Under the pieces are notes generated by a model that was not told where the DNA came from, made no database searches, and saw only the letters and a list, made by a program, of their open reading frames with translations. Made by a program: the position numbers and the translations under genes. A DNA stretch of 64,000 bases from an uncultured Bacteroidota bacterium (GTDB lineage: Bacteria > Bacteroidota > Bacteroidia > Chitinophagales > Chitinophagaceae). This document shows, piece by piece, positions 5,722 to 63,829 of the stretch. Numbering within the stretch: the first letter of the stretch is position 1; the number at the start of each line of letters is the position of its first letter. The DNA lies in the NCBI GenBank assembly GCA_903829015.1, contig CAIKOJ010000220.1, positions 1 through 64,000 on the forward strand, in the 5' to 3' direction.

Positions 5722-5916
5722 TTAGTGCTTAGTAGTATCAGCTTTCTTAGTAGTATCAGCAGCTGGAGCTGGAGCTGGAGTTGGCTCTGGAGTTGGTGCT
5801 GGTGCTACTGTAGCTGCAGCTGAATCAGTTTTTGCTGCTTCACCGCTTCCGCTACCGCAAGATGTTGCGAAAAGAGCTAATGTCAATGCGAATACGCTTA
5901 CTTTTACAAATTTCAT
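5722..5916 (-). CDS. Small Pro/Ala-rich lipoprotein (paralogue 1)
   Basis: A 64-residue lipoprotein. The signal peptide MKFVKVSVFALTLALF ends in the lipobox ATSC, with CGSGSGE following. The mature chain is a disordered tether of Ala, Pro, Glu and Thr (PTPEPTPAPAP) ending KKADTTKH. The ATG at 5916 was chosen because it starts the signal peptide; the longer frame to 5976 would precede it with polar residues. It is a paralogue of the gene at 6087-6293, sharing MKFVK at the start, TSCGSGSGE at the lipobox and a KTDS stretch. No function is known; a surface or periplasmic stress role is only a guess. Confidence 0.75.
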   Translation of the reverse strand: MKFVKVSVFALTLALFATSCGSGSGEAAKTDSAAATVAPAPTPEPTPAPAPAADTTKKADTTKH

Positions 5917-6086: not shown

Positions 6087-6293
6087 CTATTTTGCAGGTG
6101 TAGCAGGCTTTGTTGTATCTGCAGGTTTAGCAGGTGCAGCGTTCAAAGTATCTGGTTTAGCAGGCGCTTCTACAGGTGCTGCTGTCGTTGCCGATGTCGA
6201 GTCAGTCTTCGGTGTTTCACCACTACCGCTTCCACAAGACGTAACGAAAAGGCCTAATGTAATGGCGATAATGCTTAGTTTTACAAATTTCAT
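6087..6293 (-). CDS. Small Pro/Ala-rich lipoprotein (paralogue 2)
   Basis: A 68-residue lipoprotein. The signal peptide MKFVKLSIIAITLGLF is followed by the lipobox VTSC and then CGSGSGETPKTDS. The rest is low complexity, rich in Ala, Pro, Lys and Thr (APAKPADTTKPATPAK). The start at 6293 begins the signal peptide; an upstream frame to 6386 exists but would add unrelated polar residues. It is the tandem paralogue of 5722-5916. The pair shares its 5' region as well as its protein, which points to duplication of the whole transcription unit. Function unknown. Confidence 0.75.
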   Translation of the reverse strand: MKFVKLSIIAITLGLFVTSCGSGSGETPKTDSTSATTAAPVEAPAKPDTLNAAPAKPADTTKPATPAK

Positions 6294-56346: not shown

Positions 56347-56778
56347 CTATTGTTTGGCGCGCTCCTGCTTCACCTCATCAGGAGTTACAGTTCCACCGCT
56401 GTTTCCAAAATTCGAATACACATAGGTAAGCACAGTTGCTATCTCCTCGTCATTGAGTGCCTGAGGCGGCATTACGCCATTATAGGTCACGCCATTCACA
56501 ACAATATCACCGGAACTGCCTTTCAGCACTTGTTTGATCACCAGATCCTTATGAGCCAGATAATCAGACTTTGCAAGAGGCGGAAAGGTACCAGGTACTC
56601 CTTGCCCGGTGGCCTGATGGCAGGCAACACAGGTTTTCTTATAAATATCTTCACCGGTTGGTTTCGGGGTGGCTATGCTTGCTGGCGCGCTCGTTTGCCC
56701 ATTCTGATTAGATGATCCACCACATGCCATTAAAAAAGAAACCAGAACAACAACAATCGACAATTGAATACGTTTCAT
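56347..56778 (-). CDS. Lipid-anchored class I cytochrome c
   Basis: A 143-residue lipoprotein (lipobox LMAC, C19) with a flexible Ser/Pro linker and one heme c site CVACH (C50, C53, H54). The distal Met is in GVMPPQALND. The C-terminal helix has VLTYVYSNFG as usual for cytochrome c of the CXXCH single-heme type. It faces the periplasm and carries electrons. It converges with the BNR gene and is divergent from the sulfite dehydrogenase, whose electrons it could accept. Confidence 0.9.
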   Translation of the reverse strand: MKRIQLSIVVVLVSFLMACGGSSNQNGQTSAPASIATPKPTGEDIYKKTCVACHQATGQGVPGTFPPLAKSDYLAHKDLVIKQVLKGSSGDIVVNGVTYNGVMPPQALNDEEIATVLTYVYSNFGNSGGTVTPDEVKQERAKQ

Positions 56779-56884
56779 TACAGATTTTTATACGCTTTTT
56801 CGAAAGCTCTAAAATAAAACAAAATAAACAACTAAATTTAAACAAAATTATACTTGGGTAATCTGATCAAAATCAATCTGCATT

Positions 56885-58069
56885 TTGAAAAATATTCTTT
56901 TCTGGTCGATAGCTTTTACTATTTGTGGTGCAGCTTTTATTTCATGCGGAGATAAACAGGAGGACCGTTCTGCTGCTGTTAAGGATGAAATGGTCAGGTA
57001 TCCTGAGAAAAAGGACATGTACCTACTTACCGACAGGCCTCCTCAACTCGAGACCCCCCTTAAAATTTTTAAAGAAGATTTTACACCAAATGAGTATTTT
57101 TTCGTGCGCTGGCATATGTCCCAGATACTTACAAAAATCGACATTGATACTTTTAAACTCTATATCGATGGTGCTGTAACGAAGCCACTTGCACTCTCTA
57201 TGACAGATCTGAAGACCAAATTTCCAGTTGATTCTATTGTGGCTTTATGTATCTGTGCCGGAAATTCACGATCCACATTTACTCCAAAAGTACCGGGCAG
57301 CCAATGGCGCAGCGGCGGCATGGGCAATGCGAAATGGAAGGGTGTTAAACTAAAGTATCTGCTAGAATCGGCAGGTATAAAAAAGAACGCATTCGATGTT
57401 GCATTTCGCGGCATGGATAAAGCACCTCTGCCCGAAACGCCCGCGTTTACAAAATCTTTGTCTGCTAGTCACGCAATGGACGGAGAGGTGCTGGTTGCCT
57501 ATGAAATGAACGGCGAGCCCATTCCCATGCTCAATGGCTATCCACTGAAACTAGTTGTGCCGGGATGGTACGCAACGTTCTGGATAGGGGCCCTCAACGA
57601 CATCAAAGTGCTTACTGATACCTTCCACGGATTCTGGATGGACAAAGCATACCAGGTACCCGCTGATGGTAGCTTCAATGAATCTAAAGACAGCCTTGCC
57701 AGGAAAACTGTCCCTATTACAAAGGTCAACCTGCATTCCATCTTTGTGGCACCTGAGCCTTCCGATGCATTATCCGCCAATAAGCTGTGCGTAGTAGAAG
57801 GTCTGGCATTTGACGATGGCACAGGCATTAAGAAAGTAGAACTTTCTTTCGATGAAGGTAAAACATGGACGGAGACAAAACTAAATCCTGTCCTCGGCAA
57901 ATATTCATGGAGAAGATGGAAGTACGACTGGACGCCCACACAGAAAGGCGCCTACCATTTATGGGTTAAGGCAACAGATGTTAATGGACGTACCGAAGTA
58001 AACACACAATGGAACCGCAGCGGATATGCCCGTGGATTTATTGAACACCTTGACCTAAATGTGAACTGA
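56885..58069 (+). CDS. Molybdopterin sulfite dehydrogenase, lipid-anchored
   Basis: A 394-residue sulfite oxidase-family protein. The start is a TTG at 56885 directly before the signal MKNILFWSIAFTICGAAF; the lipobox FISC places lipidation at C21. The Moco-binding Cys C124 is in LCICAGNSRSTF, and WRSGGMGNAKWKGVKLKYLL follows. PLKLVVPGWYATFWIGALNDIKVL is the second Moco region, and the C-terminal WTETKLNPVL with YSWRRWKYDW is the Ig-like dimerisation domain. It oxidises sulfite to sulfate in the periplasm. The cytochrome subunit starts three bases after its stop, as in SorAB. No Tat signal is seen; a lipoprotein path is odd for a Moco enzyme. Confidence 0.9.
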   Translation: MKNILFWSIAFTICGAAFISCGDKQEDRSAAVKDEMVRYPEKKDMYLLTDRPPQLETPLKIFKEDFTPNEYFFVRWHMSQILTKIDIDTFKLYIDGAVTKPLALSMTDLKTKFPVDSIVALCICAGNSRSTFTPKVPGSQWRSGGMGNAKWKGVKLKYLLESAGIKKNAFDVAFRGMDKAPLPETPAFTKSLSASHAMDGEVLVAYEMNGEPIPMLNGYPLKLVVPGWYATFWIGALNDIKVLTDTFHGFWMDKAYQVPADGSFNESKDSLARKTVPITKVNLHSIFVAPEPSDALSANKLCVVEGLAFDDGTGIKKVELSFDEGKTWTETKLNPVLGKYSWRRWKYDWTPTQKGAYHLWVKATDVNGRTEVNTQWNRSGYARGFIEHLDLNVN

Positions 58070-58072
58070 TTT

Positions 58073-58450
58073 ATGAAGAGCAGATCTTTGGTTTTGTATA
58101 TCACTGCAGGCTGTTGCTTTGCTTACTTCCTTTCAGGTTGTCACGAACAACCTGCGCCGGCACCTGCACCTAAAAAACCGGAAAATACATTCACGGTAAA
58201 CGGCAGTGTGCGCGAAATAAAAATTAACCCCGAAACACCTGATTTCCCTGAGCACGAAGGCAAGGCTGAATTCGTTTCGTATTGCTCCATGTGCCACTCC
58301 TTAAAATACATCTCTATGCAGCCCGATTTCCCCCGCAAAACATGGGAGGCTGAGGTGACAAAAATGGTTGCAAAATACAAAGCACCAATAGATTCTATAG
58401 TTAGCAGTAAGATTGTCGATTATCTGGTTGCAATAAAATCAAAATCTTAG
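58073..58450 (+). CDS. Cytochrome c subunit of sulfite dehydrogenase (SorB-like)
   Basis: A 125-residue lipoprotein (lipobox LSGC, C23) with an Ala/Pro-rich linker and one heme c site CSMCH (C71, C74, H75). The Met ligand is M82 in YISMQPDFPRKTWEAEV. Its sequence layout resembles the SorB subunit of sulfite dehydrogenase, and its gene begins three bases after the SorA-like gene, so both are one operon and probably one complex. It passes electrons from the Moco centre to a further acceptor, perhaps the cytochrome at 56347. Confidence 0.87.
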   Translation: MKSRSLVLYITAGCCFAYFLSGCHEQPAPAPAPKKPENTFTVNGSVREIKINPETPDFPEHEGKAEFVSYCSMCHSLKYISMQPDFPRKTWEAEVTKMVAKYKAPIDSIVSSKIVDYLVAIKSKS

Positions 58451-60503: not shown

Positions 60504-61571
60504 ATGAAATATTTGCTCACTTTTCTATTGTTTCTGCTCATTTCAGTTAGCGGCGGAAAACTTCTTGCGCAAAACGAAAGCAATGACCTTGTAGATTCTT
60601 TAAAAACGGAATTACAAAAAATAAAAACAAAGAACAGTAAAGCCGCCGCACTGTACGTCGAACTGGGCATGGCTTATTATGTACAGAAAGACTATCCCGA
60701 TGCAAAACAGAACTTTAAAGAAGCTTACGATTACTATCAGAATGTTGGCGACAGAAAGGGTATGTACTGGGTATCAGAGTGGAATAAGCAAATCGAATTG
60801 AAACAGGCCGATGAGGATAGAGCTACCTACCAGACCATGATCATTGCCGGCATCATCGTCGTCTTGATCGGCGTAATACTGGTAATGGTGTGGGAGCACA
60901 AAAAACAAAAATCAGCCAATGCCCAGCTATCTGTTGAGAAGAAAAAATCTGAAGAGCTCATTTTGAATATCCTTCCGGAGCAGGTGGCAAAAGAACTGAA
61001 AGAAAAAGGCATGTCCTTTGCCAATCAATACGATCCGGTTACTGTCATCCTTACAGATTTTGTCAGCTTCACTACCGTTGCAGAAAAATTTTCGCCTAAT
61101 CAGCTTGTTGGTGAGCTCAACGCCTGCTTCAAGGCATTCGACGATATGCTGGACAAATACCACATCGAAAAAATTAAAACCGTTGGTGATGCATATTTAT
61201 GTGTTGCCGGCCTGCCCGGAAAAAATAAAAACCACGCCATAGATGCCGTAAATTTCGCTATCCACATGAGGGATTTTATGCTCCGCCGCCGCAACCAGCT
61301 CGGCGACGCTACTTTCCAAATGAGAATTGGCATTCACACCGGCGGAGTAATTGCTGGTATAGTAGGCACCAGAAAGTATGCCTATGATATTTGGGGCGAT
61401 ACAGTAAATACTGCCGCCCGTATGGAACAAAACAGCGAACCCGGAAAGATCAATATTTCCCATTCTACTTATGAAATGGTTAAAGACAGATTCGCCTGCA
61501 GCTATCGTGGCGAGATCGAGGCCAAAAGAAAAGGGAAGTTGCAAATGTACTTTGTCGAAGATCCTCTATGA
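60504..61571 (+). CDS. Membrane-anchored class III adenylate cyclase
   Basis: A 355-residue cyclase. A signal peptide or anchor (1-22) is followed by a periplasmic TPR-like segment (AALYVELGMAYYVQKDYPDAKQNFKEAY, about 48-76), one membrane helix (112-130), a signalling coiled coil (about 131-160, with LNILPEQVAKEL) and a class III cyclase domain. Metal-binding Asp are D185 (LTDFVSFT) and D229 (KTVGDAYLC). The purine-specificity residues are K225 and D295 (YDIWGDTVNTAAR), the adenylate pattern; N302 and R306 complete the site. It makes cAMP in the cytoplasm in response to an unknown periplasmic cue. Preceded by TATCTTGC, a near -7 box. Confidence 0.9.
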   Translation: MKYLLTFLLFLLISVSGGKLLAQNESNDLVDSLKTELQKIKTKNSKAAALYVELGMAYYVQKDYPDAKQNFKEAYDYYQNVGDRKGMYWVSEWNKQIELKQADEDRATYQTMIIAGIIVVLIGVILVMVWEHKKQKSANAQLSVEKKKSEELILNILPEQVAKELKEKGMSFANQYDPVTVILTDFVSFTTVAEKFSPNQLVGELNACFKAFDDMLDKYHIEKIKTVGDAYLCVAGLPGKNKNHAIDAVNFAIHMRDFMLRRRNQLGDATFQMRIGIHTGGVIAGIVGTRKYAYDIWGDTVNTAARMEQNSEPGKINISHSTYEMVKDRFACSYRGEIEAKRKGKLQMYFVEDPL

Positions 61572-62087
61572 TTTTTTTGTTCGCTGGCTACAATACAATC
61601 AATGGTCTAATTCGCCATGTAGCCAAATGTGAAACTTCACAAATATTAAAACAACCCCGGTCAATACTTCGTTCCGCTTTGTTAGCCTGATTGAATAATC
61701 AGGCACTTATTCGTTTTCAAAAAATATACCGAATCCAACAACTCAGTTATGCTTTTGTTAATCCGGCTTAAACAAACAACTGTATCATCATACATCGGCA
61801 AAAAATGTTACTGGTCCGTTATTTCTCCAGGTTGTCCGCTGCCCTATCCCTGCTTATAAACATATTTTTATTAAATTTCGTTAACCGTTGTTATTCATAG
61901 TATAAGATGTCTATTTTGCACAGTGTGTAGGACACTGAGAAAGTCGCTTATGTGTACATTTTCTCACCTAAGACCCTAATCTTTCAGCCTATTCGCACCG
62001 TTTTAGTTTTTTAATTTTAATTTTGATTTTTACATTCCTAAACGGGTTACTTTTTCCCAATTCAAGTATTAACTGGTGCATAGCCCA
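61572..62087. other. Long intergenic region before the ECF sigma factor gene
   Basis: 516 bases without a recognised gene. Seen here: GCCTGATT/AATCAGGC around GAAT, an eight-bp perfect hairpin near 61687-61706 without a long T run; the imperfect inverted repeat TGAGAA...TTCTCA at 61936-61966, similar to the terminator at 58469; and TATTTTGC near 61913-61920, a near -7 element. GGGTTAC at 62044-62050 is shared with the lipoprotein upstream blocks. No ORF with coding character is seen. Confidence 0.4.
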
Positions 62088-62657
62088 ATGAACAGCGAGC
62101 AGCATGTATTAGCTGAAATTGCAGCAGGCGACAGAACGGCTACCGAACAAATATATCGGCAACATTATCATATAATTGATGGCTGGTTAAAAAAGAACGG
62201 TGGCGATTCAGCTGATGCGGCCGATCTGTTTCAGGAGGCGATGGTGGTGTTATTTGGCAAGGCGCAGGATCCTGATTTTAATCTCACCTGTAGTATCGGC
62301 ACTTATTTGTTTGCAGTGTGCAAGCATTTGTGGTACAAAAAACTACAGCAGCAGGGCAGAGGACCGAAGATACTGCACAGCAACATTGGCACCGAGGACG
62401 ATGATATAGGGATTGCGTACGAAGACGATGTTAAAGTGCACCATGAGCGCGAGGTGCATTACGAATTGCTGAATACCGCGCTCGAACAAATTGGTGAACC
62501 TTGCAGATCATTGTTGAAGGCATATTACAACGACGACAAGAACATGCAGGAAATAGCGGCAGCCTTTGGATATACTAATCCGGACAATGCCAAAAACCAA
62601 AAATACAAATGCCTCACAAGGCTGAGAAAGATCTTTTACAGTGAGCAGGCAAAGTAA
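62088..62657 (+). CDS. ECF-type RNA polymerase sigma factor
   Basis: A 189-residue sigma-70 family protein from the ATG at 62088 (a GTG at 62076 would add four residues). Region 2 has EQIYRQHYHIIDGWLKKNGG, ADLFQEAMVVLF and GTYLFAVCKHLWYKKL. An acidic insert (EDDDIGIAYEDDVKVHHER) precedes region 4, which has EPCRSLLKAYYNDDKNMQEIAAAFGYTNPDNAKNQKYKCLTRLRKIF. This is the ECF layout used to switch on stress or surface genes. The next gene encodes a membrane protein with an anti-sigma-like N-terminus 80 bases downstream, its likely regulator. Confidence 0.9.
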   Translation: MNSEQHVLAEIAAGDRTATEQIYRQHYHIIDGWLKKNGGDSADAADLFQEAMVVLFGKAQDPDFNLTCSIGTYLFAVCKHLWYKKLQQQGRGPKILHSNIGTEDDDIGIAYEDDVKVHHEREVHYELLNTALEQIGEPCRSLLKAYYNDDKNMQEIAAAFGYTNPDNAKNQKYKCLTRLRKIFYSEQAK

Positions 62658-62737
62658 GATACTTACCTGCGGGGTTGATAAGTGAAGTCCCAAAACATAC
62701 TTGGGAATAATTTTAATGAACACAGATTTTAGAGAGC

Positions 62738-63829
62738 ATGTCTATAAACAACAATATCTGGGAAGTAGCTGAGGCGTATCTGAATGGAAGTCTACCAGAG
62801 CAGGATATACTGGCATTAAAACACAGACTGGAAACAGACAGCGTTTTTGCGGCAGAGTTTCACGAAAGCACTAATCTCATCAGGTCTTTTGAAAGCAGCG
62901 GTAAGCAAAAACGCTTCCGCACTATGTTGCAGGATATTCACCAGCAGCAAACCACCACACAGCCTGCCAGGAAATCAAAACTCATTCAATTACCGGCCAA
63001 TTTCTGGCGCACCGCAGCAGTTGCCGCTGGTGTAGCATTACTTACATCTACCGTTACCTATACAATACTTAATCCTTCCCTTAAGAAATCTAACTCGCAG
63101 TACAATATGATTCGCCGCGAAGTAGATAACATCAAAGAATCACAGAACCAGCTAAAAAGGTCACAGAACCAACTGGAGAAAGACATTAAGAAGATCAACA
63201 CCCCTACAGCTACCGTTAAGTACACCGGCACAGGTTTTGCCATCACCAACGATGGGTTCTTTGTTACCAGCTACCACGTTACCAAGGGTGCAGACTCTGT
63301 GTACATTCAAGACTACAACGGCGATTACTACAAAGCCAATGTAACCACATTTGATGAGGCAAACGATCTTGCGATACTGAAGGTTGAAAAGAAAAATTTC
63401 CATTTTGGAAAAGGTGAAGTGCCTTACTCCTTCTCAACTACCAGGTCCGGTCTCGGTAAGCATATTTTCACACTCGGTTTTCCTAAAGATCAAATGCTCT
63501 TCTGCGAGGGCTACATCAGCGGTCGACTCGGCTTCGATGGCAACGATAATCAGTACACACTGGTATTGCCTGCTGGCCACGGACAGAGTGGCTCACCTGT
63601 TATCGACGAGAATGGTAATATCCTGGGCGTAGTAACCGCCATCAGCGGCGAGGCAGAGGCAAGCACCTATGCTGTTACTTCCAAAGCACTGGTAGAACTG
63701 GTGCATAAGAAACTGCCACCAAACACCCTGCATCTGCCAAAATCTACAAAGCTTGGTCACATGAACCGCGAAGAGCAGATCAAAAAAATGGAAGCTTACA
63801 CATTCTCAGTAAAAGTTTATAAAAAATAG
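62738..63829 (+). CDS. Anti-sigma-like membrane protein with periplasmic trypsin-like protease
   Basis: A 363-residue protein. Residues 1-85 (WEVAEAYLNGSLPEQDILALKHRLETDSVFAAEF and on) look like the cytoplasmic N-terminus of Bacteroidota anti-sigma factors. A membrane helix lies at 91-111. A coiled coil (115-153) leads to a trypsin/DegP-like domain with GFAITNDGFFVTSYHV (H180), ANDLAILKV (D210) and AGHGQSGSPVID (S284, the GxSGxP motif), so the catalytic triad looks complete. No PDZ domain is present. The protease faces the periplasm, where it could cut other proteins or itself to free the sigma factor. It follows the ECF sigma gene by 80 bases. Rare fusion; the anti-sigma call is by resemblance. 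Confidence 0.82.
   Translation: MSINNNIWEVAEAYLNGSLPEQDILALKHRLETDSVFAAEFHESTNLIRSFESSGKQKRFRTMLQDIHQQQTTTQPARKSKLIQLPANFWRTAAVAAGVALLTSTVTYTILNPSLKKSNSQYNMIRREVDNIKESQNQLKRSQNQLEKDIKKINTPTATVKYTGTGFAITNDGFFVTSYHVTKGADSVYIQDYNGDYYKANVTTFDEANDLAILKVEKKNFHFGKGEVPYSFSTTRSGLGKHIFTLGFPKDQMLFCEGYISGRLGFDGNDNQYTLVLPAGHGQSGSPVIDENGNILGVVTAISGEAEASTYAVTSKALVELVHKKLPPNTLHLPKSTKLGHMNREEQIKKMEAYTFSVKVYKK

Follow-up and report, generated by a model that had tools for sequence, protein, structure and literature searches.

A putative anti-sigma factor fused to a DegS-like protease domain is encoded next to an ECF sigma factor gene throughout the Chitinophagaceae

In the RpoE/RseA/DegS/RseP system of Escherichia coli, the anti-sigma factor RseA and the site-1 protease DegS are two separate proteins, and the PDZ domain of DegS reads the C-termini of outer membrane proteins. 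RseA carries an XAA motif in its membrane helix, which is cut by RseP before ClpXP takes over at the XAA end. The same logic is described for RsgI of Clostridium thermocellum, where RseP cuts the membrane helix and ClpXP then reads the exposed XAA end (PMC12203970). In that paper, signalling by most RsgI proteins is described as beginning with self-cleavage in the periplasmic domain, after which RseP and then ClpXP, at XAA, act; autocleavage appears there as a property of the shared periplasmic domain and is not ascribed to a trypsin triad. For RsgI9, the same source reports an S1C protease-like, polysaccharide-binding periplasmic domain that undergoes autocleavage, a beta-barrel-like cytoplasmic domain and an orphan status without known SigI. 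Hence, the view of the initial annotation that anti-sigma factor and site-1 protease are separate in known systems does not hold universally, because RsgI cuts itself and RsgI9 has a protease-like domain. Self-cleaving anti-sigma factors are thus already known, working by a different device.

Two further groups are relevant for comparison. In the anti-sigma protein Dma of the Dma/Das (ECF21) system of Bacteroides, a long tether leads to a terminal beta barrel, according to the accounts of its domain build in PMC13088901 and PMC9308784. Class I anti-sigma domains (ASDI) are found near only 6% of the Bacteroidetes ECF genes, as stated in the part of PMC7406223 covering these genes. In the literature on protease-fused anti-sigma factors, on the Chitinophaga ECF regulon and on ECF factors, lipoproteins and envelope stress in Bacteroidetes, viewed as titles and beginnings of abstracts with few subscription journals included, and for the last topic among 15 of 54 papers, the present protein was not found described; the Chitinophaga ECF regulon gave no paper at all.

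The window, i.e. the whole stretch of 64,000 nucleotides that was analysed, contains an ECF sigma factor gene followed after 80 bases by the gene of a 363-residue protein (Table 1). The ATG at 62088 gives a sigma factor of 189 residues, while the mechanically called open reading frame begins at a GTG 12 bases further 5'. The sigma factor matches the Pfam family Sigma70_r2 and reaches 67.5 bits with the NCBIfam model sigma70-ECF, above the cut-off of 42.9. An AlphaFold model of the 363-residue protein, based on an alignment of 86 sequences, has a mean pLDDT of 87.0 and displays N-terminal helices at residues 7-16, 21-33 and 35-74, a hydrophobic helix, a helical linker modelled at low confidence and a trypsin-like beta barrel that starts at residue 162 and is closed by a helix ending at 325. 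Our data hence confirm what had been proposed from the letters alone, namely an ECF sigma gene followed by a protein in which a membrane helix precedes a trypsin-like domain containing H180, D210 and S284; the N-terminus of this protein is helical in the model.

Table 1. Positions of the features discussed in the text, numbered within the window.
Feature	Positions	Strand	Basis
ECF sigma factor gene, 189 aa	62088..62657	+	Sigma70_r2 2.9e-7; sigma70-ECF 1e-18
Putative anti-sigma/protease membrane protein, 363 aa	62738..63829	+	ORF, Pfam, triad conservation, AlphaFold
Helical anti-sigma-like cytoplasmic domain (predicted), residues 1-86	62738..62995	+	profile scans, AlphaFold
Single membrane helix, residues 92-111	63011..63070	+	AlphaFold (hydrophobic helix 87-114), conservation
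VAA, residues 95-97, candidate ClpXP tag after RseP cleavage	63020..63028	+	XAA 95/95
Helical linker, residues 121-152, candidate site-1 cleavage region	63098..63193	+	AlphaFold (low confidence)
DegS/HtrA-like serine protease domain, residues 160-326	63215..63715	+	Pfam, PDB comparisons
Putative catalytic H180	63275..63277	+	95/95 homologues
Putative catalytic D210	63365..63367	+	95/95 homologues
Putative catalytic S284	63587..63589	+	95/95 homologues
Conserved C-terminal helix and strand, residues 344-361	63767..63820	+	position of PDZ domain in HtrA proteins
Promoter GGGTTAC-N15-GTATTAA before sigma gene (predicted autoregulation)	62044..62072	+	motif shared across loci
Second promoter copy, GGGTTAC-N15-GTATAAA	5945..5973	-	motif match
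Small lipoprotein, 64 aa, predicted target	5722..5916	-	downstream of second promoter copy
Third promoter copy, GGGTTAC-N15-GTATTAA	6322..6350	-	motif match
Small lipoprotein, 68 aa, predicted target	6087..6293	-	downstream of third promoter copy

The locus resembles the E. coli system in its ECF sigma factor, a single-pass putative anti-sigma factor, the DegS-type fold, the presence of RseP and an XAA motif in the membrane helix. However, inhibitor and protease would here be one chain lacking a PDZ domain, whereas RseA and DegS are separate. With RsgI9 of C. thermocellum, as portrayed in the sections of PMC12203970 mentioned above, it has in common one membrane helix, the build of an anti-sigma protein and a related S1C-type periplasmic domain; in contrast to the cytoplasmic beta barrel of RsgI, the N-terminus is all helical in our model. 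Membership in the RsgI family was rejected, since the Pfam matches at E 1 include no RsgI model, the N-terminus is helical and the partner is of the sigma70-ECF and not of the SigI type. As in Dma/Das, a Bacteroidota ECF sigma factor stands beside an unusual putative anti-sigma protein composed of a cytoplasmic domain, a membrane helix and a large extracytoplasmic part, the latter being a DegS-like protease here and a beta barrel in Dma (domain descriptions in PMC13088901, PMC9308784). The Dma family was rejected as well, because the protein ends in an HtrA-like domain and not in a tethered outer-membrane beta barrel. ASDI proteins are similar in their helical N-terminal domain and in forming an operon with an ECF gene, as found in all 94 testable homologues; they differ in that the profile match is weak here and that the N-terminus of the window protein, which has zero cysteines, therefore lacks a zinc motif.

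For the comparative analyses, 95 full-length homologues from fetched loci were chosen for covering nearly the whole profile, a selection that favours intact fusions and does not include broken or partial copies; near-identical pairs such as L010 and L014 are among them. Alignments A1 and A4, of 86 rows each, derive from the 95 after removal of every row that shared 75% identity or more with a retained one, while alignment A2 also has 86 rows, without L089 and with L003. Loci L103-L132 were left out of the counts, and L085 out of the sigma counts due to its contig end.

In all 94 homologues whose contig reaches that far, the gene is immediately preceded by a homologous sigma gene in the same orientation, the 95th being the one at the contig end. 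With start codons chosen by script, the spacing in these loci extends from an overlap of 17 bases to a gap of 172; the two genes overlap in 17 of the 94, and the spacing is below 30 bases in 77 of the 94. Relatives sharing only the protease domain have no such sigma gene within about 3 kb of flank (0/11), so the arrangement of sigma factor and protease protein is not due to chance. By eye, several of these 11 relatives begin with a signal peptide or a lipoprotein start, and one (L199) has a broken frame. The same unusual HtrA-like protease was also seen at the end of other proteins (L100, L101, L102 and L192-L198), in several cases with its C-terminal extension; by eye, the carriers are mostly secreted or lipoproteins, and neither an anti-sigma part nor a sigma neighbour was present in the flank examined.

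The fusion, which had been suggested for a search in other Chitinophagaceae, is widespread in this family. Among 394 family genomes, 388 match at 1e-5, ordinary HtrA proteins included; the best match is 1e-25 or stronger in 369 of the 394 and weaker in 19 of the 388, according to our reading of the listing. The separate HtrA-like protein of the window's genome (L002), of which there is at least one, scored 1.8e-9. Among 296 genomes sampled across the class, 71 match at 1e-20, several of them via the protease domain only. Across the phylum 384 of 392 genomes match the profile at 1e-15; among the matches listed, nearly all are HtrA-like proteins of other build, and full-length ones occur only in Chitinophagaceae and some other families of the class. 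One near relative is Flavipsychrobacter, a genus assigned to the Chitinophagaceae.

In the 363-residue protein, Pfam Trypsin_2 matches residues 164-298 with 3.5e-18, and the assignment of H180, D210 and S284 as a trypsin triad held in every one of the 95 full-length homologues, in which the GxSGxP loop is likewise invariant. In a Foldseek search of the PDB, the best match of the model was the DegS protease domain (E 6e-12), and the VIA alignments gave Z 21.0 over 165 residues (rmsd 2.6) with HtrA1 and Z 20.4 over 164 residues (rmsd 2.0) with DegS. No PDZ domain was found by Pfam at E 1 in the 363-residue protein, and in the AlphaFold model only about 38 residues remain after the last barrel helix. 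The protein scored 47.5 bits with the NCBIfam DegS equivalog, whose cut-off is 422.95, and membership in the DegS or MarP family was rejected since it is far below the NCBIfam cut-offs of both. Hence, the domain resembles DegS in its fold, yet it is not a DegS by these cut-offs. Catalysis by this domain is probable from the conserved triad.

A Pfam search with the single protein gave no anti-sigma family on the N-terminus of the window protein. When the N-terminal part including the membrane helix was scanned singly for 86 homologues, the NCBIfam anti-sigma factor model NF052375 matched 47 of them (best 1.5e-8), PRK13920 (putative anti-sigma-E) nine and an LIMLP_03685-type anti-sigma model seven; the window protein itself reached 0.0081 and 16.2 bits with NF052375, for which the cut-off is 100. 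With the first 86 positions alone, NF052375 was still the most-matched NCBIfam family (19/86, best 2.1e-4) and PRK13920 matched five, so the match to NF052375 is owed partly to the membrane helix. On the similarity of the first 85 residues to anti-sigma proteins, on which the initial annotation had staked its proposal, the outcome is mixed: 19 of the 86 homologues match NF052375 in this helix-free scan, but the first 86 positions of the window protein match no anti-sigma model at E 0.05 and only SoxR. In either scan, eight of the 86 matched this unrelated SoxR model, and the window protein was one of the eight. The zinc-type anti-sigma model zf-HC2 was the most-matched Pfam family (6/86 and 7/86 in the two scans), and further unrelated families occurred at similar E-values in one or two of the homologues. 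Searches of the PDB with the N-terminal profile listed unrelated proteins first; RsiW appeared only at E 0.35 in one search and was absent among the best 60 listed in another, and others gave nothing useful.

Class I anti-sigma factors bind their sigma factor by contacting sigma-2 and sigma-4, and sigma binding was here approached by modelling. In loci with both genes in one frame, the stop codon of the sigma gene was read as Gln, and the joined chain of L008 (314 residues) was folded with 117 aligned rows, ten of them joined chains. The AlphaFold model had a mean pLDDT of 90.9 (89.8-90.9 among five models) and a pTM of 0.81. This result is what a bound pair of sigma factor and N-terminus would be expected to give, but it comes from a single artificial chain without interface score or control. 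The best Foldseek match of this model was RpoE from the RseA complex (E 7e-3, rmsd 13.2), and its neighbours were ECF sigma chains of anti-sigma complexes (RpoE/RseA, AlgU/MucA, BldN/RsbN) and of transcription complexes, all at E 7e-3 or weaker with an rmsd of about 10 or more. VIA returned mainly sigma domains with Z up to 8.2 and no prominent anti-sigma chain for the N-terminal part of the model, which says little because the matches listed cover mainly the sigma part (residues 4-197). A distance test with 92 pairs, from which L074 and L089 were left out, gave a partial r of 0.55 between sigma factor and protease domain and of 0.41 between sigma factor and N-terminus; hence, coevolution does not mark the N-terminus as the partner of the sigma factor. 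Taken together, weak profile matches, the operon structure and the confident model of an artificial single chain point to a possible anti-sigma role.

Two features typical for substrates of regulated intramembrane proteolysis are present: the membrane helix carries an XAA motif, and the genome encodes RseP. Ala96-Ala97 represent the sole invariant columns within residues 1-160 in the 95 homologues, and the preceding residue is V in 53, I in 32, A in seven and M in three of them. Lys and Arg together average 4.05 over the 15 residues leading into the membrane helix and 2.85 after it, being commoner before the helix in 71 of the 95 homologues and equal in 18. This points to an N-terminus in the cytoplasm and a protease in the periplasm. 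The linker has a mean identity of 26%, and no invariant residue marking a cleavage site was found in it among the 95 homologues; such poor conservation would be expected of a region that is cut, yet it is no proof. An RseP family member is encoded in the window's genome (220 bits, cut-off 147.55). This presence gives no special support, because RseP also occurs in 14 of 14 control genomes.

The upstream regions of the operons share a promoter-like motif. Loci with less than 250 bases upstream were left out, which kept 92 of the 94, and in these the best shared dyad, GTTAC-17-ATTAA, was present in 69, compared to at most six for any dyad in five shuffles; GGTTAC occurs upstream of the sigma gene in 85 of the 92. 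In 69 of the 94 loci, a pattern is present in which one of five -10 hexamers follows GGTTAC after 14-19 bases, and several of the 25 loci without it carry GGGTTAC with another -10. On the opposite strand, the same pattern occurs within about 300 bases in 43 of the 94 loci. After widening the search to 500 bases, 45 loci had a downstream ORF there, all of them small lipoprotein-like with 60-105 residues; by pattern 44 of these 45 proteins have a lipobox, and the 45 end in K in 25 cases and in H in 16. In many loci (L010, L017, L043 and 42 others), a small lipoprotein gene diverges from the sigma operon and has this promoter on its own strand. In the window, the two predicted lipoprotein genes are arranged in tandem on the minus strand, each preceded by the promoter of the sigma operon, and the products have low-complexity tails rich in Ala, Pro and Thr. 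A Pfam search with three of the small lipoproteins, including these two, found nothing over the cut-off.

At genome scale, the pattern GGGTTACN{15,18}TATWAA has seven matches in the window's genome and one in the reversed control; three of the seven are in the window, before the sigma gene and the two small lipoprotein genes, and the other four are not before such genes. The stricter pattern GGGTTACN{15,16}GTATWAA gave 40 matches (reversed control one) in 16 genomes with the system, compared to two (control three) in 16 genomes that belong to the class but lack the full-length protein; both sets were picked from earlier listings mainly for completeness, and the first includes the window's genome. 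Genome G113, one of the 16 with the system, has no strict match. Of the 40 sites, 13 stand before sigma operons and 17 before genes for small lipoproteins, of which one has 129 residues and the rest fewer than 90; at the remaining 10, the downstream gene is of another kind or not clear. We infer that this sigma factor uses the GGGTTAC/GTATWAA promoter, and the sigma/inhibitor pair appears to switch on its own operon and small lipoproteins. The latter may serve as ligands of the sensor, as substrates or for protection. Larger lipoprotein-like proteins, with 129 and 302 residues, also follow promoter matches (L151/L184 and L169/L180) and may extend the regulon.

We consider it fairly probable that the protein combines an anti-sigma factor and a DegS-like site-1 protease in one chain, feeding RseP and ClpXP and regulating its own operon and the small lipoproteins. 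The gene pair, the triad, the one hydrophobic helix, the XAA motif, RseP and the shared promoter-like motif of this reading are taken from the sequence, while binding of the sigma factor by the N-terminus and the DegS fold come from structural models. According to it, the cytoplasmic helices would hold the ECF sigma factor inactive. Upon an envelope signal, the periplasmic protease would cleave the linker that joins it to the membrane helix, either on the same chain or on an adjacent copy of the protein. RseP would next cut the membrane helix, and ClpXP might then degrade the resulting fragment ending in VAA and set the sigma factor free. The free sigma factor would transcribe its own operon, by which the inhibitor is reset, as well as the small lipoprotein genes. 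The missing PDZ domain speaks against this reading, since there is none to receive a signal as in DegS. The earlier suggestion that anti-sigma function and cleavage are joined in one polypeptide is borne out to the extent that an anti-sigma-like N-terminus is connected to a DegS-like protease beside an ECF gene family-wide, while cutting of the own chain, and self-cleavage as the switch, are hypothetical. A more far-reaching version, to be regarded as tentative, is a self-contained envelope switch. Inhibitor, site-1 protease and sensor would be united in a protein that cleaves itself or the adjacent subunit of an oligomer, and the regulon would be tiny, consisting of the switch's own operon and small disordered lipoproteins, these being perhaps signal, substrate or repair product.

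HtrA-type proteases often do quality control. It is conceivable, if rather unlikely, that the protein is an anti-sigma factor whose protease acts on other periplasmic proteins, with another protease making the first cut and the fusion tying repair capacity to sigma control. The HtrA kind of the domain and the lack of a conserved cleavage site in the linker would fit such a role, as would the separate HtrA-like protein L002 of the same genome. However, fusion and triad are kept in all 95 homologues; this suggests that they take part in the switch proper, with the caveat that the selection favours intact fusions; moreover, the protease sits on the very chain needing the cut, and the membrane helix keeps its XAA motif. 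Very improbable, in our opinion, is a trypsin-like domain that binds a ligand as a non-cutting sensor, as described for Clostridium RsgI9, with signalling via another protease or another kind of self-cleavage. The RsgI9 domain is indeed related (PDB 7sjy, E 9.8e-7) and is reported to bind polysaccharide in the passages of PMC12203970 on this protein, but the invariance of the full triad and the GxSGxP loop is hard to account for without catalysis.

One may also ask whether the N-terminus is an inhibitor at all. The protein might instead be a co-activator or an unrelated membrane protease co-transcribed for the same stress, as could be argued from the weak direct profile evidence for the window's own N-terminus and from the distance test, which failed to mark it out. 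This explanation is improbable in view of the strict pairing with the sigma gene versus none among the protease-only relatives, of anti-sigma models being the most-matched families in the N-terminal scans and of the confident model of the artificial sigma/N-terminus chain.

If the one-protein reading of anti-sigma factor and DegS-like site-1 protease is true, the first step of regulated intramembrane proteolysis would be built into an anti-sigma factor as a true protease, and one protein would do the work of the RseA/DegS pair in a defined system conserved throughout the window's family. The promoter motif and the predicted lipoprotein targets make this hypothesis directly testable with reporters. 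Two observations by eye concern other genes of the window. Just upstream of the sigma operon, the plus-strand gene at 60504-61571 seems to encode an adenylate/guanylate cyclase of the membrane that begins with a region of helical repeats. Furthermore, a molybdopterin oxidoreductase-like protein is encoded between two small cytochrome c-like proteins at 56347-58450, which suggests a sulfite oxidase-type unit.
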